This document shows positions 11,153 through 60,913 of a DNA stretch of 64,000 bases, in pieces. Every line of letters begins with the position of its first letter. The first letter of the stretch is position 1. The DNA comes from Deferribacterales bacterium Deferri_01. Its GTDB lineage: Bacteria; Chrysiogenota; Deferribacteres; Deferribacterales; Geovibrionaceae. The notes beneath the pieces were generated by a model, which was not told the origin of the DNA, made no database searches, and was given only the letters and a program-made list of their open reading frames with translations. The stretch covers positions 1-64,000 of the forward strand of contig LUZY01000013.1 in NCBI GenBank assembly GCA_001603805.1. The letters are read 5' to 3'. The position numbers and the translations under genes were made by a program.

Positions 11153-12337
11153 TTATTCGCAAGCCTGAGCTTTAATTGCTTTTTGTATGAATTGTTTTTT
11201 CTCATGCTTTATTCCCGAATAAAAAACATAAACCGATGCGCATATGCTTAAAACGCATGCTGGCGCTACTGTTTTTGCTGCACTGTATTGAGAGGATAAA
11301 ACAGAGCTGAAAAATGCTCCGCAGGCTGCCCCTGCGCCAAGTATGCAGTGGAAGCGTCCAAGCAGACTGCCCAGATATTCAGATTTCGTGCTTTTTATCA
11401 GCTCTGTTGAGCAGGCAGACTGAGATATTGCACCGGATATACCGTAAGCTGCTGCCAGAAATGCGATGGCACTGAACTCGGAGGTCTGGACAAGGACAAA
11501 AAGTAACGAAGCGGATAAAATTCCGCCTGTGCCTATTAGTCCTTTTCTATCTTTTTTATCAGCCAGAGCTCCGGCTAAAGGCAGAGATAGAGCAAAGAAT
11601 AAGGATGATACGCTTATTATCAGACCTGCTGTTATATCGCTGAACCCCGTCTTTTTTAGATACACAGGCAGAAGAACCACAACGGAGGAAATGCACCATC
11701 CCCTCCAAAAAATATAAAATAAAAGAGGAGTACAGTGAGCCAAGGATACTCCGCAGCGGGCTGTGGAGTGTACCTTTCCTTTTATCGCTTTGCTGCCGGA
11801 TACCCCTATAACCAGTGCAGCGAAACTTACGGCAGACATGAGAAGGAACACTGAGCTGTGACCATAAGCATTTCTGAGAATTCCTCCGAAAAAAGGTGCT
11901 GCAGCAAGTGCTGTATAAAAAGACATATCAAATATGCCTAGTGTTTTGCCCTGCGTTTCCTTTCTGCTGTTAATACCTATGGAATAATGGATCACTGGTC
12001 TGAACAAGGCGCATGCCCCGCCTTGAATAATTCTTGTGATAAGGATTACTGTCTGATCAATAAAAAAGAAATATGAGCATGATACTGCAAGATATGCGAG
12101 AAGACCTAAATTCAAAATTTTGTAAAAACCGAATTTATCCAGCATTTTCCCTGAAAACGGGCTAAGGATGATTTTAGAGAGAGAGTAAAATGCAAAAGCT
12201 GCTCCCGTTGCTGCAGCGTTCATATTAATATCTCCCATATAGAGTGAAAATAGAGAATCATTGACGCTGAATGCGAACGTAATTAGAAAATTAATTATAA
12301 AAAGCTGAATAAACATTCCATATTTTTCTGTGCGCAT
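11153..12337 (-). CDS. MFS transporter
   Basis: A 394-residue major facilitator protein with about 12 hydrophobic segments and the loop 2-3 signature in degenerate form (GKMLDKFGFYKI). It resembles drug/metabolite exporters rather than a named sugar or nitrate carrier. It is transcribed away from the TonB-receptor operon across a 254-bp shared promoter region; in PchR-regulated metallophore loci an MFS protein often exports or recycles the ligand, but the substrate here is unknown. Confidence 0.82.
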   Translation of the reverse strand: MRTEKYGMFIQLFIINFLITFAFSVNDSLFSLYMGDINMNAAATGAAFAFYSLSKIILSPFSGKMLDKFGFYKILNLGLLAYLAVSCSYFFFIDQTVILITRIIQGGACALFRPVIHYSIGINSRKETQGKTLGIFDMSFYTALAAAPFFGGILRNAYGHSSVFLLMSAVSFAALVIGVSGSKAIKGKVHSTARCGVSLAHCTPLLFYIFWRGWCISSVVVLLPVYLKKTGFSDITAGLIISVSSLFFALSLPLAGALADKKDRKGLIGTGGILSASLLFVLVQTSEFSAIAFLAAAYGISGAISQSACSTELIKSTKSEYLGSLLGRFHCILGAGAACGAFFSSVLSSQYSAAKTVAPACVLSICASVYVFYSGIKHEKKQFIQKAIKAQACE

Positions 12338-12443
12338 AAAGCTTCCTCTTTATGCTTATGATAAGCGGTGGTAGTCATAGTTAGAATCAGTGAAAGCACT
12401 TAAAAATATGGGGGAATTTACTTAGGCGACACAGTTGAAAATC

Positions 12444-12547
12444 TTCATATGTCCTTATTTTTATTAAATACTGTTACCGGAAACTGAAACTTATGAAATT
12501 TATGGAAATGATATAAAAATTTACACATTTGATATTTTTCATATGTC
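12444..12547. promoter_or_regulatory. Direct repeats TTCATATGTC in the divergent promoter region
   Basis: TTCATATGTC occurs at 12444-12453 and again at 12538-12547, 94 bp apart, between the MFS gene and the TonB-receptor gene; the second copy is 45 bp before the receptor start. Spaced direct repeats are typical of AraC-family targets, and a PchR-like regulator closes this locus. No experimental support. Confidence 0.4.
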
Positions 12548-12591
12548 TAAATTAGTTTAATGCGTCTTCATCAATTTTGTGAGGATGTATA

Positions 12592-14646
12592 ATGAAAAAA
12601 ATACTTTTTCTTTGTTCTTTTTTTCTTTTGTCGGCGCAGTTGTACGCAGCTGAACAATTAGTTCTTGAGACTGTGACTGTTACCGCTCAGAAATTTGAGC
12701 AGGATGAAAATGAGGTTCCTGTAACAATGGATGTTTTCACCCGTTTGGATTTTGAGGAAAAGAATATAAGTGATCTCAAAGACATTTCCCGCTTTTCCCC
12801 TAATTTTTTTCTGAAATCCGACAATATAGGCAATCTTCCGGTTATAAGGGGTGTTGCTCCTGTTGTGACAACACTTACAGGCTCCGCTGGAATATTTGTT
12901 GATGGTGTGGCTATGCCGACTCTTTTTATGCAGCAGCCGGAACTAATAGACGCTGAAAGAGTTGAGGTTTTGAAAGGCCCACAGGGGACGCTCTACGGCC
13001 GTAATACAGAATCGGGGGCAATAAGTATTATCACCAGAAAACCTGATAATGATATGCGTTTCAGTGCCGGGGGAGAATACTATATATACGATAAAAGCAG
13101 CAGCCCGTATGGGATTAAGTACAGAGCTTCCGCATCTGCTCCTGTTATTGAAAACCGATTATTTTTGAGTGTTTCAGCTAAAGGCGAAAAAACTGACGGA
13201 TACTTCAAAAATCTTTATAATAATGACGAAAAAGCAGGTGAGCTGGACAGAAAGGATTTTGCTCTGAAGCTTCGTTTCACTCCTTCTGCTGCATCTGAAA
13301 TTTATTTTTCGTCATACTATTTTGATGCGGATGACGCAAAAGGGAAATTCAGAATAAAAGAAGGGCTGAACTCAACCCCTGCTTATACAATTAACTATAA
13401 TGATAAATACACTCAGGACTACAGCGGCTTAGTCAACAGCCTTCAGATGAAGTATGATTTCGGCGGAGTTGAGCTTGTATCAATCACCGGGTACACTGAT
13501 TATTCCAGACATTTTGAAAAAGATTTTGAGGGTTCTCCTCTTGCGCAGGGTCTGAGTGTTCTTGATATTGATGATAATGCTTTTAGCGAAGAGATCAGGC
13601 TTTCATCCGACCAAATTGGCTTGAGATGGATAGGCGGTGTTTATGCCTATACCCAGAAAACAGATGCTCTTTTTGATAAGACAGGCATACAGGACAGAAG
13701 AAAAACAGATATTAAAAACAAAAATCTGGCAGTTTTCGGTCAGGTTTCACCTGAAATTACGGAAAAGTTTTTCATGGATCTTGGCTTAAGGCTTGAGCAG
13801 ACATGGCTTGATGCGGATATGAAGAGGAAATTTAAAACAGTTTCCTCTAAATATTCCGATGAGCATGACTCCTTTCAAGTTCTTCCGAAAGCCTCATTAA
13901 ACTATCTCACAGAGAAAGGTATTCTTTATGCCTCATTCAGTAAAGGTTATCAGTCAGGCGGCGCAAGCTACAACTTTGCGTTTTCTGATGAGAGCCTTCT
14001 CTATGACGATGAGGAGACATACAACTACGAACTGGGTTTCAAACGTTCATTTCAAAGTGGAAAATACAAGCTTTCCGGTGCGCTGTTTTATGTGGACATG
14101 AAAGACAAACAGGTGAGTCAGGTTGTTCCGGGTGAAATGGGAAACATGAAGATAGATAATGCGGCAAAGGCCCACTCATACGGGGCGGAGCTTTCATTTG
14201 ATGCTGTAGTAACATCCGAACTTCGTCTTTTTGCATCAGCCGGGGTTACAAAAGCTGAAACCGACGACTGGATGTACACCGAATACAGCATGATAACAGG
14301 TCAGGAAACTACATATGACTATAGCGGAAAAGAGCTTCCCTATGTTCCTGAATACAGCATTTCCGCAGGTTTTGCCTACCACAGCAGATATGGCATTTTT
14401 TGGAACAGCGATGTCGTATTTAACGGAGCTTACTACCACGACGGAGCAAATATGCTGAAAGAAGATGCTTACAGCATTGTTAATTCAAAAATAGGCTACG
14501 AATCAGACCGATATACGGTTTCACTGTGGTGTGATAACCTGTTTAACGAAAGATACTACGAGGGCAGCTCAATGATGCGTGCTGTTGCCGTTGTTGAAGA
14601 CTCCGCACCGAGAACTTACGGTATCAGTCTGGATTACAGGTTTTGA
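12592..14646 (+). CDS. TonB-dependent outer-membrane receptor
   Basis: A 684-residue receptor: signal peptide (1-20), TonB-box-like LETVTVTAQ shortly after, plug domain (~40-150, with VEVLKGPQGTLYGRNTESGA) and a 22-strand-type barrel ending in Phe (YGISLDYRF). The plug lacks features tying it to a specific ligand; the IRGVAP and GRNTESGAI patterns are those of iron-siderophore and related receptors. It heads an operon in which all five genes touch or overlap (12592-17841), so uptake, ligand modification by a methyltransferase and inner-membrane import appear coupled. Confidence 0.9.
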   Translation: MKKILFLCSFFLLSAQLYAAEQLVLETVTVTAQKFEQDENEVPVTMDVFTRLDFEEKNISDLKDISRFSPNFFLKSDNIGNLPVIRGVAPVVTTLTGSAGIFVDGVAMPTLFMQQPELIDAERVEVLKGPQGTLYGRNTESGAISIITRKPDNDMRFSAGGEYYIYDKSSSPYGIKYRASASAPVIENRLFLSVSAKGEKTDGYFKNLYNNDEKAGELDRKDFALKLRFTPSAASEIYFSSYYFDADDAKGKFRIKEGLNSTPAYTINYNDKYTQDYSGLVNSLQMKYDFGGVELVSITGYTDYSRHFEKDFEGSPLAQGLSVLDIDDNAFSEEIRLSSDQIGLRWIGGVYAYTQKTDALFDKTGIQDRRKTDIKNKNLAVFGQVSPEITEKFFMDLGLRLEQTWLDADMKRKFKTVSSKYSDEHDSFQVLPKASLNYLTEKGILYASFSKGYQSGGASYNFAFSDESLLYDDEETYNYELGFKRSFQSGKYKLSGALFYVDMKDKQVSQVVPGEMGNMKIDNAAKAHSYGAELSFDAVVTSELRLFASAGVTKAETDDWMYTEYSMITGQETTYDYSGKELPYVPEYSISAGFAYHSRYGIFWNSDVVFNGAYYHDGANMLKEDAYSIVNSKIGYESDRYTVSLWCDNLFNERYYEGSSMMRAVAVVEDSAPRTYGISLDYRF

Positions 14647-14647
14647 C

Positions 14648-15619
14648 ATGGCAGATGCTTACAGCAATCTGATAAACGAAATGAACGGGTGCATAAGGTG
14701 GCTTCTTCTGGAAGCCGCCGTGCGTATGAAACTGTTTGATGTTACAGAAAAATGGGTAACAGATGAAGATATCTCACACTGTCTTGGCACAAATATTTCA
14801 AAGACTGCTTTGTATCTTGATGCCCTTGTTTCATGCGGTTATCTCAGGAAACTCTGCGGTCAATACAGGAACAGTGACTTATCGGAAAAATACTTAAAAA
14901 GCGGACAGGAGCTTTATCAGGGCAGTCTTTTGCTTTCTCTTGGGGATCGAAGGCTTAAAAACCTTGATAACATACCGCTTTTCTTAAAAGAAAACGGCGG
15001 AAAAAAACTTAATCTGGCTGATGAAAACATATGGAAAAACTCTATAGATACACTCATTCCTTTTCAAAGAGCTGTTTCAGAAAATGTTGCCGACATTCTG
15101 GACTCTCTCAATGGGGCAGAAAGTTTTCGTGATGTTCTGGATCTTGGAGGAGGACCTTGCCTTATCCTTGAAGAATTTCTGAAAAGACACGAGGGGATAA
15201 GACTGACGCTGCTCGATCTGCCTCCTGTTGCGGATTTGGCAGAAGGGTTTTCTCCTGCGTGCAAATATATTAAAGGGAGCTATTCTCACATAGATTTCGG
15301 AGGAGAATACGACCTTATATGGGCGAGCAGATCACTCTATTATGCGGATGATATTAATAATATTGCTTCAAAGGCGTTTTCTGCCCTGAAAAAAGGAGGA
15401 TATTTTATCTCCCTGCATGAAGGGCTCTATAACGAGAGAACAGAGCCATATGAGGTCGTTTTGGGCAGAGTTGGGGTGGCTATGAACGGCTCGGATGTTT
15501 CTTTTAGCAGAGGTGAAATAGAAAATGCACTTACCGGCGCCGGCTTTAAGCTGCTTTCGGTACAGACTGTAACCTCAATAGGCGGGGTGGCGGATATGAT
15601 AACGGCGGTGAAAATATGA
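14648..15619 (+). CDS. SAM-dependent O-methyltransferase-like protein
   Basis: A 323-residue protein of the plant/caffeate-type O-methyltransferase family 2 fold. I chose ATG 14648, one base after the receptor stop, over a longer upstream in-frame ATG that would lie inside the receptor gene. Residues 1-85 form the winged-helix dimerisation domain (NEMNGCIRWLLLEAAVRMKL...), and 150-200 the SAM site (DVLDLGGGPCLILEEFL, LTLLDLPPV). The usual catalytic His area reads IWASRSLYYADD. Its position between a receptor and an ABC importer is unusual; it may methylate the imported ligand, or a precursor of it. Confidence 0.82.
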   Translation: MADAYSNLINEMNGCIRWLLLEAAVRMKLFDVTEKWVTDEDISHCLGTNISKTALYLDALVSCGYLRKLCGQYRNSDLSEKYLKSGQELYQGSLLLSLGDRRLKNLDNIPLFLKENGGKKLNLADENIWKNSIDTLIPFQRAVSENVADILDSLNGAESFRDVLDLGGGPCLILEEFLKRHEGIRLTLLDLPPVADLAEGFSPACKYIKGSYSHIDFGGEYDLIWASRSLYYADDINNIASKAFSALKKGGYFISLHEGLYNERTEPYEVVLGRVGVAMNGSDVSFSRGEIENALTGAGFKLLSVQTVTSIGGVADMITAVKI

Positions 15620-16524
15620 GGCTTCTTATAGCATTTTTAATACTTATTTCAGCAGCATCAGGCGAATGCAGAGATAAAATAATACTCACCGGTACTGCTG
15701 TTTTCGGTACATGTCCAATGATTATGATGGCAGAAGATAAACTGTTTGAAGCGAACGGCTTTGATGCGGAGTTTATACCATGGAATACACCGGATCAGTA
15801 CAGAGCGCTTATTTCATCCGGAAAACAGGTTTACGCACTTATCAGCACTCTGGAATATGTCCGTCTGAATAAGTCTGTCAGAGATATGTCCTCCATGTTC
15901 ACAGTGGAGGGAAGCCAGCTTTGGTTTATGGGCAGAAAAGAGAAAATGAGTCTGGACGATTTGAGAGAGGAAACTGTTGCTCTGCCTTTTCGTGGTGATA
16001 TGCCTGAAATAATGCTTGGGATGCTGCTTGCCAAAAGAGGTTTAAGCACTGAAGATGTAAAAATAGTCTCTGCCGGGGGTGCTGTAAACTCTGCGCAGCT
16101 TGTTATGACCGGAAAGGCAGGCTCCGTTATGCTTCCTGAGCCTGTGGCCGGCACAGTCAAAGACATCTCTTCATCCAGAAAAGGGCTTGTGCCTCTTTAT
16201 TACTCATTATCCGTTGAGGATGAATGGAACAGACAGTATAACGGCAATCCTCCTCTTGTGCTGAATGTAATTTCCAGTTTCTCCACCGGGAAAGAAACTG
16301 ATGAAATTTTCATGAAATATTACGGAAGCTATTTTGAACAGTGCAAGAAGAGCGATGAGGCGGCAGTCAACGCTTTCATCCGTTATTTTCCTTCGCTGGA
16401 CAAGAAAAGTACCGGCAGGCTCCTCAGCAGCAACACAGACAGGCTTAAAACACTTGAAGACGGTTCCGGCAATCTTAATAAATTTATCAGTCTGATGGGG
16501 AAACATGCTGTCAAGGCTTACTGA
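15616..16524 (+). CDS. ABC transporter periplasmic binding protein, NMT1/TauA-SsuA-like
   Basis: A 302-residue solute-binding protein with Sec signal (1 to ~18) and the NMT1/ThiY-type pattern (MIMMAEDKLFEANGFDAEF near residue 35; two alpha/beta lobes). It overlaps the methyltransferase by 4 bp (ATGA) and the permease by 20 bp. Family members bind sulfonates, thiamine precursors, nitrate or cofactor-like molecules. Ligand contacts cannot be assigned here. Confidence 0.82.
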   Translation: MRLLIAFLILISAASGECRDKIILTGTAVFGTCPMIMMAEDKLFEANGFDAEFIPWNTPDQYRALISSGKQVYALISTLEYVRLNKSVRDMSSMFTVEGSQLWFMGRKEKMSLDDLREETVALPFRGDMPEIMLGMLLAKRGLSTEDVKIVSAGGAVNSAQLVMTGKAGSVMLPEPVAGTVKDISSSRKGLVPLYYSLSVEDEWNRQYNGNPPLVLNVISSFSTGKETDEIFMKYYGSYFEQCKKSDEAAVNAFIRYFPSLDKKSTGRLLSSNTDRLKTLEDGSGNLNKFISLMGKHAVKAY

Positions 16525-17278
16525 CAAACCATACAGGCTCATAGGCGGAGCTGCCCTCATCGGGCTGTGGCAGACAGCATCAGTATTTATGAGCGACATC
16601 ACTATGGCATCTCCCGTTGAAGCATTTGGGGCTGCGTGGCGTATGATATGTGATCCGGTTTTTCTTAAGGAGCATATGAGTATAAGCATAATGCGGACTG
16701 TTCTTGCCCTTATGCTCGAGTCCTTATGCGGCTTTTTTCTGGGAGTCCTAGCCGGAAGATTTGAACCTGTTATGGATTTTCTGGAGCCTTCACGCAGGCT
16801 GATGACAAGTATTCCTGCTGTGGTTGCCACTGTTCTTGCAATGCTTTGGTTTGGAATGGGCAGTGTTATGGTCATTGTTTTAAGCACGGTCTTTATCGTG
16901 CCTACGGTTTATGTGAATATTGCTGAAAGCATGGTGAAGTGCGACAAAACATATACGGAGATGGCATTTGTTTACAGGTTTTCTTCTCTTATGCGCCTGA
17001 AGTATGTATACCTGCCTGCCGTTTATGCTGCGCTGACAGCTTCGCTTGTTGTTACGACCGGCAACAGCATGCGCCTTGTGATACTCGCAGAGGTTATGGG
17101 AGCCGGTGAAGGGCTCGGCTATGTGCTTGGGATTTCCAGAGCAAGGCTCGACATGCCGACATTATACGGATGTGTGCTTATCTCATTCGGTTTCGTGTGG
17201 CTTGGTGAAAATATAATAAGGAGAATTCTTAGGAGACGTACGGGGTGGAAAAAAACATCTGCAAACTCTGCGGCATAA
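16505..17278 (+). CDS. ABC transporter permease, SsuC/TauC-like
   Basis: A 257-residue inner-membrane permease with about six hydrophobic segments and the EAA loop typical of the family (YTEMAFVYRFSSLMRLKYVY, around residues 155-175). It overlaps the binding-protein gene by 20 bp and the ATPase gene by 34 bp, so the importer is translationally coupled. Confidence 0.86.
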   Translation: MLSRLTDKPYRLIGGAALIGLWQTASVFMSDITMASPVEAFGAAWRMICDPVFLKEHMSISIMRTVLALMLESLCGFFLGVLAGRFEPVMDFLEPSRRLMTSIPAVVATVLAMLWFGMGSVMVIVLSTVFIVPTVYVNIAESMVKCDKTYTEMAFVYRFSSLMRLKYVYLPAVYAALTASLVVTTGNSMRLVILAEVMGAGEGLGYVLGISRARLDMPTLYGCVLISFGFVWLGENIIRRILRRRTGWKKTSANSAA

Positions 17279-17841
17279 CAGTACGCATGGGAGAAAAGAA
17301 TATACTGGAAAATTTCAGTATTGAGATCAAAAGAGGATTTGTAACCGGTATCGCTGGCAAAAGCGGTAAAGGGAAGACCACTTTGCTGCGTACTATTGCG
17401 GGACTGGAAAAGCATACTGAGGGGACAGCCGAATTCTCATACAAGAAATTAGGGTATGTTTTTCAGGAGCATAGGCTTTTACCGTGGGTTACTCTTCTTG
17501 AGAATACTGCGCTGCCTCTTATTCGTTATATGAGAAAGAAAGATGCGGAAAAGAAAGCTTACGGGGCGCTTGAGTCTGTTTTGCTTGATAAATGCGCCGA
17601 TATGTATCCTGAAAACCTTTCCGGCGGTATGGCACGCAGAGCTGCAATTGCCAGAGCCCTAGCATACGAGCCGGATTTGCTGCTGCTTGATGAACCCTTC
17701 AGCGGTCAGGACTCCGCAACTAAAAAACACCTGATTGATGTCTTGAAGGCGTATATGCAGAACACGGAGTCTTCTGTGGTTCTTGTGAGTCACCATGATG
17801 AAGATTTTGAGATGCTTTCTGCAGAAGTCGTTTCTTTATAG
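17245..17841 (+). CDS. ABC transporter ATP-binding protein, SsuB/TauB-like (short)
   Basis: ATPase of the importer, 198 residues. GTG start at 17245 with AGGAG 9 nt upstream, inside the permease gene. Walker A GKSGKGKTTLL (~35-45), Q-loop in YVFQEHRLLPW, signature LSGGMARRAAIARAL, Walker B LLLLDEPF and switch His in LVSHHDED are all present. It is about 50 residues shorter than SsuB because it stops soon after the switch region; all catalytic elements are kept, so it should be active. Its 3' end overlaps the convergent AraC gene by 6 bp. Confidence 0.87.
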   Translation: MEKNICKLCGITVRMGEKNILENFSIEIKRGFVTGIAGKSGKGKTTLLRTIAGLEKHTEGTAEFSYKKLGYVFQEHRLLPWVTLLENTALPLIRYMRKKDAEKKAYGALESVLLDKCADMYPENLSGGMARRAAIARALAYEPDLLLLDEPFSGQDSATKKHLIDVLKAYMQNTESSVVLVSHHDEDFEMLSAEVVSL

Positions 17842-18732
17842 CTTTTTCCGGTATTCTCTGGGCGGTACTCCTTTTTCCTTGCAGAAGCAGGCACAAAAGT
17901 GGCTTGACGAGCTGAACCCTGTCGAGTAGGCAATTTCTGTTATGTTCATATCTGTATCTGTTAGATATTTTTCCGCCAGATTAAGTTTTTCCTTCCGTAT
18001 GAAGGTAAAAACACTTATTCCGAAAACTTCCTTAAAAATCCTGCACAGCTTTGTATGACTCATGCCAGCGCTTTTTGCAAGTTCATGCAGGCTGTAGCCT
18101 GTTTCCGGGGTCGCTTTTATAAATGCGGCTATCTCTTCTGCCGTTCTTTTGTCTTTTGAATTAACTGTTATGCCATCAGCCATAAACGTTTCCATCAGGA
18201 GTTCAAGAATCCAGGCATGAATCATTGTTTTACCTGTCAGACCTCGGTATCCGGATGAAATGATTTTGCTGCACATATATTTTGTATAAGGTGAAAAACA
18301 TTTAAACTGCTCTATATTGTTTGGGTCAGATTTTTTAACGGACTTTCCGGTATCATTAAGTAGTCCGTCCAAGGCTGTCTCAGAAAGTTTAATTATGACA
18401 GCTTCTGCCTTGCAGCCGGAATAAAGCTTTCTGTGTATTTCTGAATCCTTTGTGTAAAAAAGGTAGGATGACCCTCCTGAAAGCTCCTTCCAGCGGCTTG
18501 TTCTGCCTGCTTTGAGACCAAAGGCACCTTCAAGGATAAACACAAAGTTAGCTATGCTTCCTTCCTCCTCAAAGACAGACTCAGCAGAAGAGGACGCAAA
18601 AGCTGTGCTGTGTGTATAGCTTACACCTTCGGCAACAGTGCTGCGGAGAATTTTGCCACTGGTATCAGCACCGTTTAAAAGAAGCCACTTCCTACTGTTA
18701 TCCAGTGAATATTCATTTGCCAGATTCAGCAT
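17836..18732 (-). CDS. AraC-family regulator, PchR-like
   Basis: A 298-residue regulator. The N-terminal half (about 1-190) resembles the ligand-binding region of PchR/siderophore-responsive AraC proteins; the C-terminal ~100 residues hold two helix-turn-helix units (SLHELAKSAGMSHTKLCRIF and ITEIAYSTGFSSSSHFCACF). PchR-type proteins sense the ferri-siderophore carried by their cognate TonB receptor and activate that operon. The convergent placement at the end of the TonB-methyltransferase-ABC operon suggests the same here, with the direct repeats before the receptor as candidate sites. Confidence 0.82.
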   Translation of the reverse strand: MLNLANEYSLDNSRKWLLLNGADTSGKILRSTVAEGVSYTHSTAFASSSAESVFEEEGSIANFVFILEGAFGLKAGRTSRWKELSGGSSYLFYTKDSEIHRKLYSGCKAEAVIIKLSETALDGLLNDTGKSVKKSDPNNIEQFKCFSPYTKYMCSKIISSGYRGLTGKTMIHAWILELLMETFMADGITVNSKDKRTAEEIAAFIKATPETGYSLHELAKSAGMSHTKLCRIFKEVFGISVFTFIRKEKLNLAEKYLTDTDMNITEIAYSTGFSSSSHFCACFCKEKGVPPREYRKKL

Positions 18733-18869: not shown

Positions 18870-20108
18870 TTACTTTTTGCCGAGGGCAAATTTGTAAACA
18901 GCATAGAAGCGGGTATCTTCGTAGTCTTCGCCGCCTTCTTTAACATTTATGTTTGCATATCTTGCTCTGAGGCTGAGACCGTCAAGAGCGCCTGAAAAAG
19001 CATACTGAATACTGTAGTCTGTTTCAGCCTGATCTTTTCCTGTGGAGGAGGGGACATCGTATTCTGCATGATATACATATGCGCTGAGTCCCTTCAGCCC
19101 AATTTGTGAAAAATCATAAGCTATTTTTGCAGCATAGGCTTTTTCATCTGCTCTGCCTGAAGCAAGTATCTGCTGAATTATAACCTTCTCGTCACCCCAT
19201 GGTAAAACAAGACCGTCGTCTCCGGTTTTAGCATAGAATCCCGTTACATTGAGTCCCCTGAATATAAACCCAGTGTTGAAGCCGTACTGATCTGTATCGG
19301 CTTCTCCGTTAAGCTCGTCTCCCTGAGATTTCTGGGTGAAATATGAAGGGCTGAAGTAAACTGTTGTTTCTCCAAGTTTTTTGCTCAGTCTGGCTTTAAG
19401 GAATATTTCATTGTAAATATCATCCATTGAATAGTACCAGGCCTGAACATTGGCTTTTACTGCTTCAACGGGGATATTATATGATGCTCCGAAGATCATC
19501 ATATCTTTGTCTTCATCAATTACAGAAGCACCGCCGGGTTCATCAGCTACCGACTTTGAAAGGGGAATGAATTCATCATCGGTCCATCCCATTGCATCTG
19601 TGAGGTAATAAGCAGACAGTGTAAGGTTTTCAAAAGAGTTATTAACGATTGAAAACCCTTTATATGTTCTCGGCAGCATGCGGAGATCATGGGTTTCAAG
19701 CATAGGAGTTCTTACTTCCTGCGCACCGTATTTGATTACAGTATCAAACCATTCACCCTGAATAAAGTATTCCTGAAGACGTGTAACGTTTTTGTGGTTG
19801 CCGTCTTCATCTTTGGCGAGGATGCTGTAAACTGCATCATTGTCATCATTAAAAATACCGTTTACAGTTGCGAAAGCCGCACCGAAAGATATTCCTTTAA
19901 AAGGTGCTGTGCGGTAGTAGAGAAGTCCGCCGGCAGCAGTATCTTTTCTGTCGGGTGTTGTTTTATCGAAATCTCTTTCAAAGCTGAGGATTCTGATTTC
20001 TCCTCTGAGTGAGCCGTCGGCGAACATATCTTTTATATTGTCCGCAGCGAATACCGTTGCAGACGCACATATCATAACTGATAAAATTATCAGGGCTTTA
20101 AGTCTCAT
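18870..20108 (-). CDS. OprD-like outer-membrane porin
   Basis: A 412-residue exported barrel. ATG 20108 is preferred because CAGGAGATAG precedes it and a signal peptide (MRLKALIILSVMICASATVFA) starts there. The order of strands and the EVRTPMLETHDLRMLPRTYKG segment resemble OprD-family or epsilonproteobacterial-type specific porins. As the last gene of the CISM-II operon it likely admits that enzyme's substrate, but this is inferred from position only. Confidence 0.8.
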   Translation of the reverse strand: MRLKALIILSVMICASATVFAADNIKDMFADGSLRGEIRILSFERDFDKTTPDRKDTAAGGLLYYRTAPFKGISFGAAFATVNGIFNDDNDAVYSILAKDEDGNHKNVTRLQEYFIQGEWFDTVIKYGAQEVRTPMLETHDLRMLPRTYKGFSIVNNSFENLTLSAYYLTDAMGWTDDEFIPLSKSVADEPGGASVIDEDKDMMIFGASYNIPVEAVKANVQAWYYSMDDIYNEIFLKARLSKKLGETTVYFSPSYFTQKSQGDELNGEADTDQYGFNTGFIFRGLNVTGFYAKTGDDGLVLPWGDEKVIIQQILASGRADEKAYAAKIAYDFSQIGLKGLSAYVYHAEYDVPSSTGKDQAETDYSIQYAFSGALDGLSLRARYANINVKEGGEDYEDTRFYAVYKFALGKK

Positions 20109-20142
20109 ATCTATCTCCTGTAATAAAAAATTAAGTATGCTC

Positions 20143-20814
20143 TTATGCCACTGTTTCGTAATATGAAGATGGCAGTTTACTGCTGTCAAAGAGTGCAAGG
20201 TAGGTCAGACCAAGCACACCCCTGTAAAAATCTGTGCGGACGTGTTTAAAAGCCTCGGTACAGAACTTGGGAAACCACGAGGCAATATGATTTACAGTGA
20301 AATCTTCAAACAGATCCGTAAGTTTATTGTAGTTTTCAAGGTCATTGTTATTCAGTGCGTTTGCCCGCTGAAAAGAGAGGAAAGCGGCGAAATCAAGCTG
20401 AACGCCTATGTAGTCATGGCGGTTATTCAGCTCGGCATATCTTGTGTAATCCGCATCAAGATAAAGCGCCGCAAGCTCTTTTATAAGTCCGGGGTTTTTC
20501 ACCGCAAGGTAAACTTCCTCATAAGGCGCTTTTGGTCCGTAGTCAGGCGAAACCGCTCTGAAAAGCTTTGTCCAGTCCCTTTTGAGGTTCAGTAGTTTTT
20601 CTTCGTCGCTGTGAGGAAAAGTGGAAGCTGCATAGTTTTTTATTTTCAGCACAGCCTGTTTAACATCCTCATCAGCTATTTCATCTGTATTAAGACTGCG
20701 TGTGCCGTCGATAATATCCTGCTCCGGGTTGCAGTTGTAGAAAGCCGCAAGCAGAGAAAAGATTTCGGCATCGTTAGCAGCACTTTCAAACAGTACACTT
20801 GTTGATTTGTCCAT
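20143..20814 (-). CDS. TorD/DmsD-family molybdoenzyme chaperone
   Basis: A 223-residue all-helical cytoplasmic protein that escorts the Tat-exported catalytic subunit during cofactor insertion. Start ATG 20814 is set by a strong TAAGGAGG site. Recognisable features are the N-terminal FSLLAAFYNCNPEQD helix and the mid-protein LFRAVSPDYGPKAPYEEVYL, matching the TorD pattern of acidic/Tyr residues after a 'P-Y-E' turn. It lies 66 bp after the ferredoxin gene of the same operon. Confidence 0.87.
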   Translation of the reverse strand: MDKSTSVLFESAANDAEIFSLLAAFYNCNPEQDIIDGTRSLNTDEIADEDVKQAVLKIKNYAASTFPHSDEEKLLNLKRDWTKLFRAVSPDYGPKAPYEEVYLAVKNPGLIKELAALYLDADYTRYAELNNRHDYIGVQLDFAAFLSFQRANALNNNDLENYNKLTDLFEDFTVNHIASWFPKFCTEAFKHVRTDFYRGVLGLTYLALFDSSKLPSSYYETVA

Positions 20815-20880
20815 TACAGACCTCCTTAGAAAATGACCTTCCGGCGGAGGAAGAAAAGCACGGAAGGTCATTAGAAGTGT

Positions 20881-21489
20881 TTAGTCTATGTAAAATACTC
20901 TTGGTGATGTTCCCTTTTCAGGGTAAAGCGGTTTTGGTTTGTACTGCTTAAACATTTTAGAGATTTCGCTGTTGGGGTCGTCAAGATCTCCAAAAGTTCT
21001 TGCGACACCTGCGCATGTGGCAACACATGCAGGCGGAAGTCCTTTTGATCTTCTGGGGGCGCAGAAGGTACATTTATCTACTGTTCCCGCAGGGTGATCT
21101 TTGTAGCGAGCCTGCTCAAAAATATCCTGCTTGCCTACTTCAGACCAATAGGTTGGTGTATCCTTTTCATTGAAGTAGCGTGCGCCGTAAGGGCATGCTT
21201 CCATACAAAGCTGGCAGCCTACACATTCAGATGTTGTAATCTGAACTGTTCCGTCTTCCATTTTTTTGGATGCTCCTGTGGGACACACTTCCACACAGGG
21301 GGCTTTATCGCAGTGGTTGCATATAAGCGGGCGGTATTCCATATGGGCTTTGGGAAAACTGCCCACTTCTTCAGTTATGGTTTTTGTCCAGAATGTACCC
21401 GGAGGAGTAGCATTGGCAACTTTGCACGCAACTGCACAGCCGTGGCACGCATAACATCTTCTTCTATCAATTATCATTGCCAGTTTCAT
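20881..21489 (-). CDS. Four-cluster ferredoxin subunit of CISM-II (PsrB/ArrB-like)
   Basis: A 202-residue electron-transfer subunit. Cys sets: CYACHGCAVAC (12-22), CNHCDKAPCVEVCPTG, CVGCQLCMEACPYG and CTFCAPRRSKGLPPACVATC, enough for four [4Fe-4S] clusters. The C-terminus (KPLYPEKGTSPRVFYID) resembles ArrB/PsrB proteins. It starts 10 bp after the catalytic subunit, with a GGAGAAAG site. It lacks its own signal, so it would be carried out by the Tat signal of the catalytic subunit. Confidence 0.9.
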   Translation of the reverse strand: MKLAMIIDRRRCYACHGCAVACKVANATPPGTFWTKTITEEVGSFPKAHMEYRPLICNHCDKAPCVEVCPTGASKKMEDGTVQITTSECVGCQLCMEACPYGARYFNEKDTPTYWSEVGKQDIFEQARYKDHPAGTVDKCTFCAPRRSKGLPPACVATCAGVARTFGDLDDPNSEISKMFKQYKPKPLYPEKGTSPRVFYID

Positions 21490-21499
21490 TTCTTTCTCC

Positions 21500-24217
21500 T
21501 TAGGCTTTGTAAATACGAACGGGCACAGAGTTAGACACGCCTATCGCAACAGCACAGCAGGTGGATATTTTCGCATTCGTCAGTTTGTTATACATGGGGT
21601 ATGAGGAAGCTTTCTTGCCGAGCGAATCCACAAGACGTCCGAGCGCACCCGCAAAACCTACAACATCAGGGAAAATAAGCTCTGTAACGTGAACCTGACC
21701 GGAGACTTTTCCGTTGGCTGATTCAACCCAGATTGTGTCGCCTTCTTTGATGCCTTTTTCTGCCGCTGTTTTGGTATTGAGGCATATTTTTCCGTAAGTG
21801 GGGTCAAATGTCTCACTCACTTCATTCAGGTACGGAAGCTGGTCGTTACCCGCTATTCTCATGGGAGAAGTGGGGGCTTTCCAGTTGATTGAGATCATAT
21901 CGTACTTGTTGCCTTTTTTAACTTCTGTAAGGTCTTTCGGTCTCCATTTTATTACAGGTTCGTAATACTGGAGCTGATCTTCCATATCAAAGTCGGGCAG
22001 GTATATTTTGTCTTTGTATTCGGTAAAGAACTTACGAAGCTCATCACCGCTGCGTTTCAGACGTTCAAAGTAAATGGGGTGTCTGGTTTCGCCTTTTTTG
22101 AAGAAGGATGAGTTGTAAGCATCGGCAGGAGCCATCTGCTGAACAATGATTCCTTCTTTTTTCATATCATCAAGAGGTCTGTTGAAGTAAGCTTTTACCC
22201 CTTTATCCCAGATTTCGGCTATGGTGTAGCGTTTGCCGGGCTGAAGGTAATCTTTGGGGTCAAGCTTGGCGAATGTAACCTCACCGAGAATTACACCTGT
22301 TTTATTTATGTTTGCGTTGAAGTCATCAATCATACCGATGCGTTCGCAAAGTTCGATGATAATGTCCTGAGGCTGTTTTGTGTTATACAGAGGAGGCATG
22401 GGGTCTCTGTACATCATGACCCTTGTGGAGATTGTCTCTTTTGTATAAACGTCAAAAGCGCCTTCGTATGAGTTTACGGACTCTTTTTCAAGCAGAGCGT
22501 GTGAGGGCAGGAGTATGTCTGCCATGTGCGCCATTTCATCATAATGGTATGCCACAGTGGCGGAGAAAGGTATCTTTGCCACAGAGTCAGCAACCATATA
22601 AGGTTCTGTTGTGCTTGCTATGGGGTTTGAGCCGACTGAAAGGAGGGCATCAATCTCATAGTTAAGACCGTATTTATGAGGATCAGCCGCAACTCTGAAC
22701 GCAAGGGTGGGCAGAGTGTGTTTGTGCGGGAAATACTCAGAAAGGTTAACATGCTGAGGCGGATAAACAGGTTTTTTGAACCTTGCTTCGCCTTTGGGAG
22801 CCACAACACCGTCTTCATCAGGTTTGAGGAACGGTCCTCTCTGTGTTCCAAGCATACCGCCAGGTACATCAAGCGAACCGACAAGCATGTTGAGCAGCTT
22901 TGTCATAAGGTCGGCAGGAACGCCGTCACGCATGTTTTTGATACCGCGTTTACCTTCACATACGGATGTACGTTTGGGCATGAGGAGTTTTTCACCTTTG
23001 CCGTTAACCATCTCGATGCTTTCGCCGATGCTTGCGTTTTCAATGAAGTCTCTTGCGACTTCTCTTATTTTGGAAGCAGGGATACCGGATATTTTTGCAG
23101 CCCATTCAGGAGTATTCTTTTTGAGTCCTTCTTTAACAAGGACAAAGCCTGCCTTTGTCTTTTCGCCGTTAACTTTGATGTTTTCAGCATAAATATCAGG
23201 GTCAGACAGTGTTTTGTCGTCAAATGATTTAACTTTTTTATCTTTAAGGTCATAGATCTGCGGTTTGCCGTCTTTGCCTCTGGCGTAGTATCCGTCTGAA
23301 GCTATAAGGTAAGGTGCGTTGGTTTTCCATTTAAGGAAATCAACGTCCATTTTCTTAACTTCAAAAATGATGCTGTTCGCAACTCCCATAAGGAAAGCAA
23401 GCTCTCCGCCGGGTTTAACGGGAACCCACTCCATTTTAGAAGCATCCGGTCCGCAGTGAGGATCGACACAGACAATTTTAATATCTTTTTCATTGTAAAT
23501 TCTGTTCAGAAGCCCTCTGACACCGCCGTCAGAAGATGCGATACCCATACCGAGGTTCATACCCATAGCGAGTATGTATTTTGCGTATGTTGCATCAGGC
23601 TTAACGCCGGGGAAAACACCCTGAACAAGGTCAGATGCGTAGTGAAGAACACAGAGTGTACCGTTGCTTTTTACATAGTTTGGTGTTCCGTAAGCGCCTG
23701 CGAAGTAGAAAAGGAATGTACAGAAGAAATCCATATCGCCGAAACCGACAGAATACATGAATCTTCTGGGATCTTTTTCTCTTATTTCTTTCAATACACC
23801 TGCTGTTGTGTTCAGTGCTTCGTCCCATGATATTTCAACCCACTGAGGATCTTCCTGAAGACCTTTCTTGGGGTTGGTTCTTTTCATAGGTGCTTTAACT
23901 CTGTAGGGGTTATAAAGGTTCTGGATTATTGATTGTCCCTTAGCGCAGAGAGCGCCTTTGCTGGTGGGAGTCTTAGGGTTACCCATAACTTCCACTGCCA
24001 CGCCGTTTTCCACACGGTACATATTAGGACATGTCCCCCTCATGCACATGCGGCAGTGCCCGTAATGCCAGTTGTCTTTGGACATTATGCCTTTCTTGGC
24101 GTCGGCTGCAGCAAGAGCGGAGTTTGTGCTGCCAAGGTTAATACCCATGACCGCGGCAGCTCCCGCTATACCGGCCGCTTTTAAAACCGATCTCCTGCTT
24201 ACTTGAACTGTTTTCAT
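21500..24217 (-). CDS. Tat-exported molybdopterin oxidoreductase, catalytic subunit (PsrA/PhsA/ArrA-like)
   Basis: A 905-residue catalytic subunit. Tat signal SRRSVLKAAG (7-16); [4Fe-4S] ligands Cys55, Cys58, Cys63 and Cys91 (HCRMCMRGTC, GALCAKG); SNGTLCVLHYASD puts Cys189 at the Mo-ligand position, as in polysulfide, thiosulfate and arsenate reductases and unlike the Ser of the enzyme at the left edge. C-terminal pterin-binding domain ~770-900. The family includes polysulfide, thiosulfate, selenate and arsenate respiratory reductases; I cannot tell which. No NrfD-type membrane subunit is in the operon, an ArrAB-like arrangement. Confidence 0.9.
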   Translation of the reverse strand: MKTVQVSRRSVLKAAGIAGAAAVMGINLGSTNSALAAADAKKGIMSKDNWHYGHCRMCMRGTCPNMYRVENGVAVEVMGNPKTPTSKGALCAKGQSIIQNLYNPYRVKAPMKRTNPKKGLQEDPQWVEISWDEALNTTAGVLKEIREKDPRRFMYSVGFGDMDFFCTFLFYFAGAYGTPNYVKSNGTLCVLHYASDLVQGVFPGVKPDATYAKYILAMGMNLGMGIASSDGGVRGLLNRIYNEKDIKIVCVDPHCGPDASKMEWVPVKPGGELAFLMGVANSIIFEVKKMDVDFLKWKTNAPYLIASDGYYARGKDGKPQIYDLKDKKVKSFDDKTLSDPDIYAENIKVNGEKTKAGFVLVKEGLKKNTPEWAAKISGIPASKIREVARDFIENASIGESIEMVNGKGEKLLMPKRTSVCEGKRGIKNMRDGVPADLMTKLLNMLVGSLDVPGGMLGTQRGPFLKPDEDGVVAPKGEARFKKPVYPPQHVNLSEYFPHKHTLPTLAFRVAADPHKYGLNYEIDALLSVGSNPIASTTEPYMVADSVAKIPFSATVAYHYDEMAHMADILLPSHALLEKESVNSYEGAFDVYTKETISTRVMMYRDPMPPLYNTKQPQDIIIELCERIGMIDDFNANINKTGVILGEVTFAKLDPKDYLQPGKRYTIAEIWDKGVKAYFNRPLDDMKKEGIIVQQMAPADAYNSSFFKKGETRHPIYFERLKRSGDELRKFFTEYKDKIYLPDFDMEDQLQYYEPVIKWRPKDLTEVKKGNKYDMISINWKAPTSPMRIAGNDQLPYLNEVSETFDPTYGKICLNTKTAAEKGIKEGDTIWVESANGKVSGQVHVTELIFPDVVGFAGALGRLVDSLGKKASSYPMYNKLTNAKISTCCAVAIGVSNSVPVRIYKA

Positions 24218-33175: not shown

Positions 33176-35530
33176 CTAATGCTGGTGTTCAGTTCTGCGG
33201 ATTATCTCTTCCTGTAATTCATCTGTGATATCAACAAAGTAGTCAGAGTAGCCTGCAACTCTTACTATGAGATCTCTATAGTTTTCAGGGTGAACCTGAG
33301 CCTCACGGAGAATCTTTTCATCCACAACATTAAACTGGATATGGTGTCCGTCCATACGGAAGTAAGCCCTAACCAGTCTGCAGACATTGTCTATGCCTTC
33401 ATCAGTGTACATAAATTCTTTGGCGAATCTCTGGTTGAGCAGCGTTCCGCCTGTACGCAGATGGTCGATCTTGGAGGCAGATTTAATAACAGCAGTAGGA
33501 CCGTGTCTGTCTGCGCCCTGAACTGGTGATATGCCTTCAGAAAGGGGAATTCCCTTCTTGCGTCCATCGGGCAGAGCGCCTATAACGCTTCCGAAATACA
33601 CATGAGACGTAGTTGGCAGAAGGTTGATTCTGTGCATACCGCCCCTTGTGTTAGGTCTGCCGTTTACGGATTTGAAGAAGATTTCAAATACTTCTCTCAT
33701 GAGATCATCTGCATAATCATCGTCATTGCCGTATTTCGGTGTATTTTCCAGAAGAAGGGCACGGAGTTCGTCATATCCTTCAAAGTCAGCATCCAGAGCT
33801 TTTTTGAGCCCTTCAAGGCTGATTATCTGCTGGTCATAAACATTATATTTGAGTGACGCCAGTGAATCTGTCACTGAGCCAAGCCCAACACCCTGAACAT
33901 AGGTGGTGTTGTACCTTGCGCCGCCGTCATTGTAGTCTTTGCCGTTTTTGATGCAGTCCTCAGTGAGTATTGAGAGGAAGGGTACGGGAATGTACTCTGC
34001 AAAAAGGCGCTCAATTACAATATTTCCTTTAATTTTGATATCTATAAAGTAGTTGAGCTGTTTTGTGTAGGCTTCCATCAGCTCGTCAAAGCTTTTGAAA
34101 TCAGCAGGTATATCAAGCCCTATCTGTTTCTGGGTATATTTGTCAAAACCGCCGTAGATTGTGATCTCAAGGACTTTTGACAGGTTGAAATAGCCGGAAA
34201 GTATGTATGCTTCTGTTCCGAATGCGCCTGTTTCAACGCAGCCTGAAGCACCGCCGTTTCTGGCATCGACAATATCTTTACCCTGACGCAGAAGTTCCTG
34301 AATGATGGCATCTGTATTAAAGATAGAGGGCTGTCCGAATCCTGTTTTAACTATGTGCAGGGCTCTTTTAAGAAACCTGTCAGGTGTCTTCTTTGAGATC
34401 TGCACCATTGAGCTGGGCTGAAGAAGCCGCATTTCTTCAATGACATCAAGAAGAACGTATGAAAGCTCATTAACTGCATCCGAACCGTCTTCTTTAACTC
34501 CTCCAACGTTTATGAGAGCAAAGTCTGTATAAGTGTTTGACTCTTTGGCTGTTACACCAACTTTTGGAGGCGAAGGGTGGTTGTTAAACTTGATCCAGAA
34601 CGAATAGAGAAGTTCTTTTGCTCCTTCTTCTGTAAGTTTGCCGGATTCGAGATCTGCCTTGTAAAACGGATAGAGGTGCTGGTCAAGCCTTCCGGGGTTA
34701 AAAGCATCCCATGGGTTTGTTTCGGTAATAACGCCTATGTGGAGAAACCAGTAGAGCTGGAGAGCTTCCCAGAAGCTTTCGGGTGCGTTTGCGGGAACCT
34801 TGGAGCAAACTACGCTCATTTCCTGAAGCTCAAGTTTGCGTTTCGGATCTTTTTCCTTATCTGCAAGTTCTTTCAGGGCTTTTGCGTTTCTTTCTGCATA
34901 ATTGATAACAGCATCGGCAGCTATGAGCATGCCTTTAAGTTCTTCATTTTTGCTGAAAGCCTCCGGATCATTGTAAAAATCGAGGTCTTTTATTGCCTGC
35001 TGAACTTCTGCCTTCAATCCGTTAAGCCCGGTTCTGAATACTTTTTTGCCGAGAACAGTATGTCCGGGCGCTCTTTGTTCCTGAAACTCAGTGAAGACAC
35101 CGGCTTCATAAGCTTTAACCCATTCATCTGCCATGTGGCTTATAACTTTCTCCCTGTGAGACTTGCCCTGCCAGAAAGGAAGGACAATTTCTTCGTGGAG
35201 TTTTCTGTTTTTTTCATCCACCTTAAATGAAACCTTCGGTCTGTTATGGAGAATATCAAAATCCTCTTTTGAGTGTATGCAGACTTCGGGGTAGGTGGGG
35301 GTGGCTTTGGGAGAAGGTCCTCTTTCGCCGACGATGAGTTCGCCGTCATTAAACCAAAGTTCTTTATTTGCCATTATATAATAGAAGGCTTTCGCTCGCT
35401 GTACAGGAACGGACATTCCGTCCGCCTCACCGCTCTTAAAGAACTCGGTTAACAAAACGCCCCTTTCGGATGAAATTGTGGGCACAGCGTCGAGGCTCTC
35501 TTTGCGGAGTCTTTTTATCCTGTCTGTCAT
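33176..35530 (-). CDS. hypD: Glycyl-radical enzyme, probable trans-4-hydroxy-L-proline dehydratase
   Basis: A 784-residue glycyl-radical enzyme that would dehydrate trans-4-hydroxy-L-proline to P5C. The radical loop is RVAGYSDYF with Gly760; the thiyl Cys and base are Cys431 and Glu433 in GGASGCVETG. From memory, C. difficile HypD pocket residues F152, H160, D278, S334, D339, F340, C434, E436 and Y450 all map here with a constant offset of three: F149, H157, D275, S331, D336, F337, C431, E433, Y447. That and the neighbouring P5C and proline dehydrogenase genes make HypD far likelier than choline, isethionate or glycerol enzymes. Start has a TAGGAGG site, directly after its activase. Confidence 0.87.
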   Translation of the reverse strand: MTDRIKRLRKESLDAVPTISSERGVLLTEFFKSGEADGMSVPVQRAKAFYYIMANKELWFNDGELIVGERGPSPKATPTYPEVCIHSKEDFDILHNRPKVSFKVDEKNRKLHEEIVLPFWQGKSHREKVISHMADEWVKAYEAGVFTEFQEQRAPGHTVLGKKVFRTGLNGLKAEVQQAIKDLDFYNDPEAFSKNEELKGMLIAADAVINYAERNAKALKELADKEKDPKRKLELQEMSVVCSKVPANAPESFWEALQLYWFLHIGVITETNPWDAFNPGRLDQHLYPFYKADLESGKLTEEGAKELLYSFWIKFNNHPSPPKVGVTAKESNTYTDFALINVGGVKEDGSDAVNELSYVLLDVIEEMRLLQPSSMVQISKKTPDRFLKRALHIVKTGFGQPSIFNTDAIIQELLRQGKDIVDARNGGASGCVETGAFGTEAYILSGYFNLSKVLEITIYGGFDKYTQKQIGLDIPADFKSFDELMEAYTKQLNYFIDIKIKGNIVIERLFAEYIPVPFLSILTEDCIKNGKDYNDGGARYNTTYVQGVGLGSVTDSLASLKYNVYDQQIISLEGLKKALDADFEGYDELRALLLENTPKYGNDDDYADDLMREVFEIFFKSVNGRPNTRGGMHRINLLPTTSHVYFGSVIGALPDGRKKGIPLSEGISPVQGADRHGPTAVIKSASKIDHLRTGGTLLNQRFAKEFMYTDEGIDNVCRLVRAYFRMDGHHIQFNVVDEKILREAQVHPENYRDLIVRVAGYSDYFVDITDELQEEIIRRTEHQH

Positions 35531-41106: not shown

Positions 41107-42741
41107 TTACTCCGCCTCCATATGGGGATAGCCTATGGAAAGAGGGGGAACGAATGTTTCTTTTATTGTACGTGTATTTACCCAGCGGATAAGGTTAAGG
41201 TAGCTTCCTGCCTTATCATTTGTGCCTGATCCTCTGCCGCCGCCGAAAGGCTGCTGACCGACAACCGCACCTGTGGGTTTGTCGTTGATATAGAAGTTGC
41301 CTGCTGCGTCTTCAAGCAGCTCGAAAGCTGTTTCGACTGCTTCTCTGCATCTTGAGAATATTGAGCCTGTGAGGGCATATTCATTGCCGGAGTTGCAGAG
41401 TTTGAGGTATTCTTCATATTTTTCATCTTCATAGAAAGTCACAGTCAGAACAGGTCCGAATATTTCTTCTCTGAAGGTTTTGAAGTCAAGGTTCTGTGTT
41501 GTTATCACAGTGGGTTCGATGAACCAGCCTTTTGAACTGTCGTATCCTCCGCCGATAACGATTTCCGCATCTGAAGCCTGTTTAGCGAAGTCTATGTATT
41601 TTACGATAGATTCATAGGCACGTTTGGAAACAACTGCGGTCATGAAGTTTCTGAAATCAAGGGGTGAGCCCATTTTGATTTCGGCTGTGAGTTCTTTCAT
41701 TTTCTTGAGGTAAGCATCTTTCAGGCTGAAAGGCACGTATGCTCTTGAAGCGGCAGAGCATTTCTGACCCTGATACTCAAAAGCACCCCTTACTGAAGCA
41801 ACAGCAAGTTCATCAACATCAGCAGAGCTGTGAGCAAAGATAAAGTCCTTGCCGCCTGTTTCGCCGACTATTCTTGGGTATGATTTGTAAGAAGAGATGT
41901 TTTTGCCGATTGTTTCCCAGATATTTTTGAAAACGCCTGTGCTGCCTGTGAAGTGGATACCGCCGAAATCGGGGCTGGAGAATGTTACTGCGGATATGTC
42001 TTTTGCATCGGAGGGAACATAGTTTATTACCCCGTCGGGAAGTCCCGCTTCTTTGAATATCTTCATGAGAAGGTTGGGTACATATGCCGCATCTCCTGAC
42101 GGTTTCCATATAACCGTGTTGCCCATTATAGCGGGAGAGGCAGGAAGGTTACCGGAAATAGCTGTAAAGTTAAAAGGAGTAACAGCAAGGATAAATCCTT
42201 CGAGAGGACGGTATTGAATAGCATTCCATACGCCTTTGGAGTTATGGAGAGGCTGTTCGCCGTATATCTGCTGCATGAAGTAAACATTAAAGCGGAGGAA
42301 GTCAATCAGCTCGCAAGCGGAGTCGATCTCAGCCTGAACAGCAGTTTTGCCTATGGAAAGCATTGTTGCCGCATTCATCTGTGCGCGGTATTTAGTGGAG
42401 ATAAGTTCCGCTGCTTTGAGGAATATAGCTGCTCTGTGAAACCAGGGAGTTTTGCCCCATGTTTTTCTGGCTTCCATTGCAGCATCAATAGCCTGCTGAA
42501 TTTCTTTCTGACCGGCTTTGTGGTATTTACCGAGTTTTATGGAATGATCAAAGGGTGCTGTTATTTCAACAGTGTTTCCAGTTTTTACTTCTTTTCCGCC
42601 GATAACAACAGGAACTTCTATGTATTTTTCAGAGAGCTCTTTAAGAGCGGCTTTAAGTTCTTTTTTCTCCTTACTGCCTTCACGGTATTCAAGAACCGGT
42701 TCGTTCAGAGGGAATGGTACGTTAAACATGCTGTTATTCAT
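41107..42741 (-). CDS. pruA: 1-pyrroline-5-carboxylate dehydrogenase
   Basis: A 544-residue aldehyde dehydrogenase that oxidises glutamate semialdehyde (hydrated P5C) to glutamate with NAD(P)+. Catalytic Cys in FEYQGQKCSAASRAYVP and general-base Glu in IVGETGGKDF are present, and the length and the N-terminal FNVPFPLNEPVLEYREGSKE match the group-1 P5CDH (RocA/PruA, ALDH4-like) rather than betaine-type enzymes. It follows the proline dehydrogenase by 32 bp with an AGGAG site; together they equal a split PutA. It also accepts the product of the HypD-like enzyme. Confidence 0.91.
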   Translation of the reverse strand: MNNSMFNVPFPLNEPVLEYREGSKEKKELKAALKELSEKYIEVPVVIGGKEVKTGNTVEITAPFDHSIKLGKYHKAGQKEIQQAIDAAMEARKTWGKTPWFHRAAIFLKAAELISTKYRAQMNAATMLSIGKTAVQAEIDSACELIDFLRFNVYFMQQIYGEQPLHNSKGVWNAIQYRPLEGFILAVTPFNFTAISGNLPASPAIMGNTVIWKPSGDAAYVPNLLMKIFKEAGLPDGVINYVPSDAKDISAVTFSSPDFGGIHFTGSTGVFKNIWETIGKNISSYKSYPRIVGETGGKDFIFAHSSADVDELAVASVRGAFEYQGQKCSAASRAYVPFSLKDAYLKKMKELTAEIKMGSPLDFRNFMTAVVSKRAYESIVKYIDFAKQASDAEIVIGGGYDSSKGWFIEPTVITTQNLDFKTFREEIFGPVLTVTFYEDEKYEEYLKLCNSGNEYALTGSIFSRCREAVETAFELLEDAAGNFYINDKPTGAVVGQQPFGGGRGSGTNDKAGSYLNLIRWVNTRTIKETFVPPLSIGYPHMEAE

Positions 42742-49718: not shown

Positions 49719-49740
49719 TGTTAAAAACTAAGGGTTGCCT

Positions 49741-53885: not shown

Positions 53886-53911
53886 GAATTAGTTATTAGG
53901 AGGTGTAGAAC

Positions 53912-56138: not shown

Positions 56139-56154
56139 TTACAGGAGATATAAA

Positions 56155-57186: not shown

Positions 57187-57189
57187 CTT

Positions 57190-60800: not shown

Positions 60801-60913
60801 TCAGGTTGCAATGGAACTGTACGACGTTCACTGCCGAATAGGCAGCTTAGAAAAGCAGCATCAGGTTGCAATGGAACTGTACGACGTTCACTGCCGAATA
60901 GGCAGCTTTGGTT
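57882..60913 (+). CRISPR. CRISPR array 2, type I-F, 51 repeats and 50 spacers
   Basis: 28-bp repeats with loop GCACA instead of the GCATA of array 1 (49 copies), spaced almost exactly 60 bp apart. The last two repeats (60826, 60886) have loop GAATA, enclose an identical spacer twice, and the final copy decays after CTT, marking the trailer end on the right. Same orientation as array 1. Confidence 0.98.

Follow-up and report, generated by a model that had tools for sequence, protein, structure and literature searches.

Uptake systems have been described for the siderophores yersiniabactin (FyuA, YbtPQ, YbtX, YbtA) and pyochelin (FptA, FptX, PchR), and for the cofactor pyrroloquinoline quinone (PQQ; PqqU, PqqT). 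Once iron has entered the cell, the known routes for its release are reduction of the metal and hydrolysis of the ligand. Staphylococcus aureus methylates the carboxylate of pyochelin, which lowers its Fe(III) affinity and provides a precedent for release or neutralization by methylation (PMC12077171). Here, we analyzed a five-gene operon in a 64,000-nt stretch of contig LUZY01000013.1 from Deferribacterales bacterium Deferri_01 (hereafter, the window; all coordinates refer to its full length), which encodes a TonB-dependent receptor, a class-I methyltransferase (MT), an NMT1-type substrate-binding protein (SBP), a permease, and an ATPase. With slightly better than even confidence, we interpret it as an iron-regulated operon for the uptake of a foreign metallophore, likely a phenolate/thiazoline compound (yersiniabactin/pyochelin-like), the ligand of which would be methylated after import. 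The parts are all of known kinds; the receptor–MT unit with interchangeable importers appears to be undescribed in the open-access literature, in which (not a full survey) we found no characterized system of this make-up, in agreement with an earlier reading of the sequence alone (hereafter, the sequence-only reading). The features of the locus are as follows.

11153–12337, minus strand: divergent major facilitator superfamily (MFS) transporter (Pfam MFS_1)
12338–12591, no strand: intergenic region between the divergent MFS gene and the receptor gene; operon control region
12527–12538, plus strand: ATTTGATATTTT, candidate regulator/promoter element 65 nt ahead of the start of the receptor gene
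12592–14646, plus strand: FyuA-type TonB-dependent outer-membrane receptor, 684 aa, plug and barrel (Pfam PF00593/PF07715)
14648–15619, plus strand: class-I S-adenosylmethionine methyltransferase, O-methyltransferase-2-like fold with N-terminal dimerisation domain, 323 aa
15616–16524, plus strand: NMT1/SsuA-type periplasmic substrate-binding protein, 302 aa (Pfam NMT1)
16505–17278, plus strand: ABC importer permease, SsuC/TauC-like, 257 aa (Pfam BPD_transp_1)
17245–17841, plus strand: ABC importer ATPase, short, 198 aa (Pfam ABC_tran)
17836–18732, minus strand: convergent AraC-family regulator (Pfam HTH_18)

All six genes that the sequence-only reading had reported lie where it placed them, and Pfam matches agree. 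The five operon genes (12592–17841) touch or overlap at every junction: the receptor stop (14646) and the MT ATG (14648) are separated by 1 nt, the MT stop (15619) overlaps the SBP ATG (15616) by 4 nt, the SBP stop (16524) overlaps the permease ATG (16505) by 20 nt, and the permease stop (17278) overlaps the GTG start of the ATPase (17245; an in-frame ATG lies at 17287) by 34 nt. The ATPase stop (17841) converges on the AraC stop (17836) with a 6-nt overlap. The divergent MFS gene is present as previously described, but conservation does not support its membership in the system, which was rejected: no MFS gene occupies that position in the sister loci L009 and L010, and the protein reached only 38 bits to an Azospirillum MFS.

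When compared to solved structures, the receptor was closest to FyuA (best PDB match 4epa; E = 1.1e-29, query 27–680). A profile of 21 receptors of this family also placed FyuA first, over its full length (331 bits), followed by PqqU/YncD (177 bits), the pyochelin receptors (127–134 bits; FptA: 127 bits), and BtuB (~47 bits). Because the receptor fell below the NCBIfam cut-off for siderophore receptors (TIGR01783: 153.3 vs 223.5 bits), strict membership in that family is not claimed. A corrinoid precursor, another ligand suggested by the sequence-only reading, was rejected, given that BtuB scored far under FyuA and that the receptor also missed the BtuB cut-off (TIGR01779: 43.7 vs 599.7 bits). 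The PqqU model was absent among the NCBIfam matches of the window receptor, and the relative L101 scored 85.9 bits against a cut-off of 1200. In total, the window genome (G000) encodes nine receptor barrels.

The importer genes belong to the NMT1/TauA type, comprising an SBP of NMT1 fold (Pfam NMT1: 23.8 bits, cut-off 20.5), a BPD permease, and an ATPase in which the Walker A, LSGG signature, and Walker B motifs are all intact despite its short length. The SBP model (predicted local distance difference test [pLDDT]: 79) matched the folds of PqqT (top), Thi5, SsuA, TauA, and ArrX; these are near-equal generic NMT1 folds, and the fold search was therefore discarded as a means of assigning the ligand. 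The permease matched NCBIfam SsuC and SaoP below their cut-offs (SaoP equivalog: 59.2 vs 295 bits).

The MT matched Methyltransf_2 (PF00891: 24.9 bits, cut-off 22.3), Dimerisation (PF08100: 25.6 bits, cut-off 25.6), and generic methyltransferase domains in Pfam. Its AlphaFold2 model (pLDDT: 90.9) resembled, at about 20% identity in Foldseek, ASMT, DsyB, RedM, PigF, BchU, and the holomycin methyltransferase DtpM. The dimerisation and Rossmann methyltransferase fold is shared with DtpM, DsyB, and ASMT, none of which is known to be encoded in an uptake operon. Profile alignments to 2r3s and 3mcz showed a Tyr where classic O-methyltransferases have the catalytic His (L-Y-Y/F opposite L-H-H/Y), and because of this replacement O-, N-, and S-methylation cannot be told apart.

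The sequence-only reading would have been contradicted by co-occurrence limited to one genome; instead, the complete five-gene order was found in 17 loci (the window, L009, L010, L016, L018, L019, L021, L022, L023, L029, L097–L101, L109, and L111). We sampled 51 genomes of the window's phylum, 395 of the Desulfoluna phylum, and annotated plasmids; the MT alignment, run against 84,980 species genomes, yielded 33 loci. The complete order occurs in three Deferribacterota, in Desulfobacterota, and on plasmids of Rhodobacter capsulatus (L109: pRCB133 of strain SB 1003, RCAP_RS17780–17755, with RCAP_RS17775 as the receptor and RCAP_RS17770 as the MT) and Rhodovulum (L111: Rhodovulum sulfidophilum), in some cases with the permease and ATPase fused. 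Annotated records of these loci carry generic names and no system name. One copy is probably decaying, with the SBP and permease genes split by intervening or frame-shifted sequence (L100:7373–10415). Within the window's phylum the distribution is patchy: a high-scoring SBP was present in three of the 51 genomes (the window's and those of its relatives of the same family, G005 and G010), and both relatives keep the order receptor–MT–SBP–permease–ATPase with a convergent AraC gene. Among the 395 genomes of the Desulfoluna phylum, all six with this SBP subfamily encode it directly after the receptor–MT pair.

Ten more loci (L017, L041, L045, L047, L087, L088, L090, L110, L112, and L113) have the receptor and MT without ABC genes, so that the description of an MT in an uptake operon as unusual needs qualifying: the pair is present in 27 of the loci examined. 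In Gammaproteobacteria, the receptor–MT pair is followed by an MFS gene in place of the ABC importer, nearest to the AmpG and RhtX/FptX families and below their cut-offs. Receptor and MT distances were strongly correlated (r = 0.94; Mantel test, 27 pairs; 0 of 2000 permutations as high), as were SBP and MT distances (r = 0.95; 17 loci with an SBP), with both values inflated by shared descent. The MT search patterns held part of the 'YD(L/I)IWAS' motif, and its invariance is thus partly by construction. In the MT tree, the sequences from the window, G005, and G010 group as a clade with full support, and the receptor label changed eight times on the tree compared to 19.7 in shuffles; the wider MT family therefore gained or lost its receptor several times.

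Regulatory sequences were compared among the same copies. L010 has a perfect Fur box (19/19) at a distance of 4 nt from the start of its AraC gene, L009 has a 16/19 match upstream of its AraC gene, and L016 has matches of 15/19 and 14/19; four Fur-family proteins are encoded in G000. AraC orthologues adjoin the operon in relatives, as shown by synteny. Assignment of the window gene to the AraC family holds, whereas the likeness to PchR given by the sequence-only reading is backed by no more than an AraC-family helix-turn-helix match. Upstream of the receptor, 12-mers similar to ATTTGATATTTT are found at -68 and -60 in L009 and L010, with three mismatches in total across the three Deferribacterota promoters (none of 200 mononucleotide shuffles did as well; 14-mer: P 0.02), and we regard it as a candidate control element on the basis of this similarity. 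The direct repeat TTCATATGTC reported before the receptor does exist (copies at 12444 and 12538) and is not significant (P ~0.07): when the 254-bp region was shuffled by dinucleotides, 7% of the shuffles contained a repeat of at least 10 bases, and TTCATATGTC was rejected as a regulator site.

These data allow a closer comparison with yersiniabactin uptake. The operon shares with it a FyuA-type receptor and, in sister copies, an AraC regulator by a Fur box; in one sister genome (G010), homologues of YbtP (559 bits to 6p6i_A) and YbtQ (536 bits to 6p6i_B) and an RhtX/FptX-like MFS follow the AraC gene. It differs in having an MT in the operon, an NMT1-type ABC importer at the window locus in the place of YbtP/YbtQ, and a genome without an NRPS condensation match. 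Pyochelin uptake is resembled by the gammaproteobacterial variants, which have the receptor, an AraC regulator, and an FptX-like MFS; the receptor is nearer FyuA than FptA (331 vs 127 bits), however, the MT is added, and the window has an ABC importer. Because YbtPQ are lacking at the locus, the siderophore-receptor cut-off is missed, and ligand binding is only predicted, the operon is not filed under either system. Staphylococcal pyochelin methylation is comparable by logic alone, in that methylation would lower the iron affinity of a foreign siderophore; there, it was proposed as a defence in Gram-positive coculture and lies outside any receptor operon (PMC12077171).

This comparative evidence gives fairly good support to the import of a foreign metallophore, namely the FyuA-type receptor, the Fur boxes in sister copies, the RhtX/FptX-type permease in variant operons, and the lack of matches to siderophore synthesis genes. 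We found no nonribosomal peptide synthetase (NRPS) condensation or IucA/IucC (NIS) match in G000, G005, or G010 (other siderophore routes were not searched), and the ligand is therefore probably foreign; a phenolate/thiazoline metallophore is the most likely class. The metal complex would cross the outer membrane through the receptor, and the SBP and ABC importer (an FptX-like MFS in other lineages) would pass either this complex or its ligand on to the cytoplasm. Gene order suggests that the MT acts there on the imported ligand. Such methylation may serve to weaken the donor set, so that the metal is released and iron is not re-bound in the cell, and the AraC protein may activate the operon in the presence of the ligand.

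Several observations weigh against this interpretation. Usual siderophore binding proteins are not of the NMT1 type, and the MT has no His at the classic catalytic position, so that the usual mechanism of phenol O-methylation cannot be taken for granted. Related MTs were found without a receptor in archaea and other bacteria; the enzyme family is therefore not dedicated to uptake. No Fur box could be recognised in the window copy (best matches of 10–12/19, none above shuffles). The YbtPQ homologues of G000 and G005 are located elsewhere with their own receptor (in G000 on the same contig, at a distance of about 730 kb), and for this reason the adjacency in G010, which may be coincidental, is suggestive only. 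Close YbtP homologues occur in six of the 51 phylum genomes, including all three with the operon; G006 and G008, which have YbtP and lack the operon, further weaken the adjacency, and it was rejected as decisive proof of yersiniabactin.

A different purpose for the same chemistry would be detoxification or competition: a foreign chelator or antibiotic is taken up and inactivated by the MT, with nutrition secondary, possibly by analogy to staphylococcal pyochelin methylation or to thiol methylation of holomycin. The fold match to DtpM, the lower Fe(III) affinity of pyochelin methyl ester (PMC12077171), and the proteobacterial MT relatives that adjoin an AraC gene without a receptor (L089 and L091) agree with this model. 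It is inseparable by sequence from import for nutrition, and we consider it unlikely, as a dedicated receptor and importer spend energy on bringing the compound in and the Fur boxes in sister copies point to nutrition. Salvage of a PQQ-like, tetrapyrrole, or other redox cofactor, converted by the MT to a usable form, would explain the second rank of PqqU/YncD among solved receptors, the PqqT match of the SBP, the BchU-like fold of the MT, and the flavin and PyrK-like reductase genes that follow the operon in several Desulfobacterota copies. The likeness to PQQ import extends to a TonB receptor of the second-closest solved type combined with an NMT1-type SBP; PQQ import is not known to involve a methyltransferase. 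However, FyuA exceeds PqqU by 154 bits and BtuB is lower still, PqqT heads a list of near-equal generic NMT1 folds, and sister copies have a Fur box; the receptor ranking and Fur boxes make salvage the weaker account, and we judge it quite improbable.

It is more doubtful still that the MT synthesizes an endogenous methylated metabolite and stands in the operon through shared regulation. Its superfamily is typical of secondary metabolism, and archaeal relatives occur in other contexts, but MT distances track those of the receptor and SBP across phyla, the MT is kept both alongside a different type of importer and in the absence of a receptor (in L024, a metagenome-assembled genome labelled Bacillota, ABC genes and MT stand together on a short contig without a receptor), and the window locus has no conserved biosynthetic partner. 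Returning to metallophore uptake, we tentatively raise the idea, which we think has a limited chance of being correct, that cells have in methylation a third intracellular means of freeing the metal, with the receptor–MT unit spread across phyla and coupled to whichever inner-membrane importer was at hand. In some Desulfobacterota, a flavin/NAD reductase cassette would then reduce the metal ahead of ligand methylation.

The cassette recurring beside the operon encodes a DUF6064 membrane protein, a PRK05802 FAD/NAD-binding protein with a Cys-rich N-terminus, a GidA-like flavoprotein, and a PRK06851 two-P-loop ATPase, and is a possible reductive partner of the operon. It was located at the following positions.

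L016, 13320–17459: reductase cassette
L098, 2493–6556: reductase cassette
L100, 11023–15076: reductase cassette
L024, 3993–8926: reductase cassette
L021 and L029: reductase cassette, upstream of the receptor

It was rejected as a required part, given that G000, G005, and G010 all lack the PRK05802 member. Directly upstream of the receptor in G010 (L010:1–5988) are genes for a FecCD importer, a CfbC/NifH-like protein, and two nitrogenase-like (Oxidored_nitro) subunits; these were not retained as system members, being absent from the window and the G005 neighbourhood. A second metallophore locus of the window genome (L131:6738–14931; G000:C13) comprises a receptor, YbtP, YbtQ, an RhtX/FptX-like MFS, and a second MFS. 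Archaeal MT relatives (L027–L044; ANME-1, Methanosaeta, and others) share 28–30% identity and have no receptor, and some adjoin two half-size ABC exporter-type genes.

Elsewhere in the window, a type I-F cas cluster (49735–57753; Cas1f, Cas3f, Csy3) lies between two large CRISPR-DR4 arrays (44826–48895 and 57882–60853). There are two loci for molybdoenzymes of the DMSO-reductase family, one with a DmsA/YnfE-like subunit (13–2772) and the other (18870–24217) with a PhsA/ArrA-like subunit, an iron-sulfur subunit, an OprD-type porin, and a protein that we take to be TorD-like. A trans-4-hydroxy-L-proline dehydratase (glycyl radical enzyme; 33176–35530, above the NCBIfam cut-off) is encoded near an L-glutamate gamma-semialdehyde dehydrogenase (41107–42741).

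The removal of iron from foreign siderophores is poorly known in anaerobes. The joint divergence of the MT and an outer-membrane receptor points to a possible role for methylation of the ligand in release or neutralization, and the copy in the genetically tractable R. capsulatus SB 1003 makes this idea directly testable.

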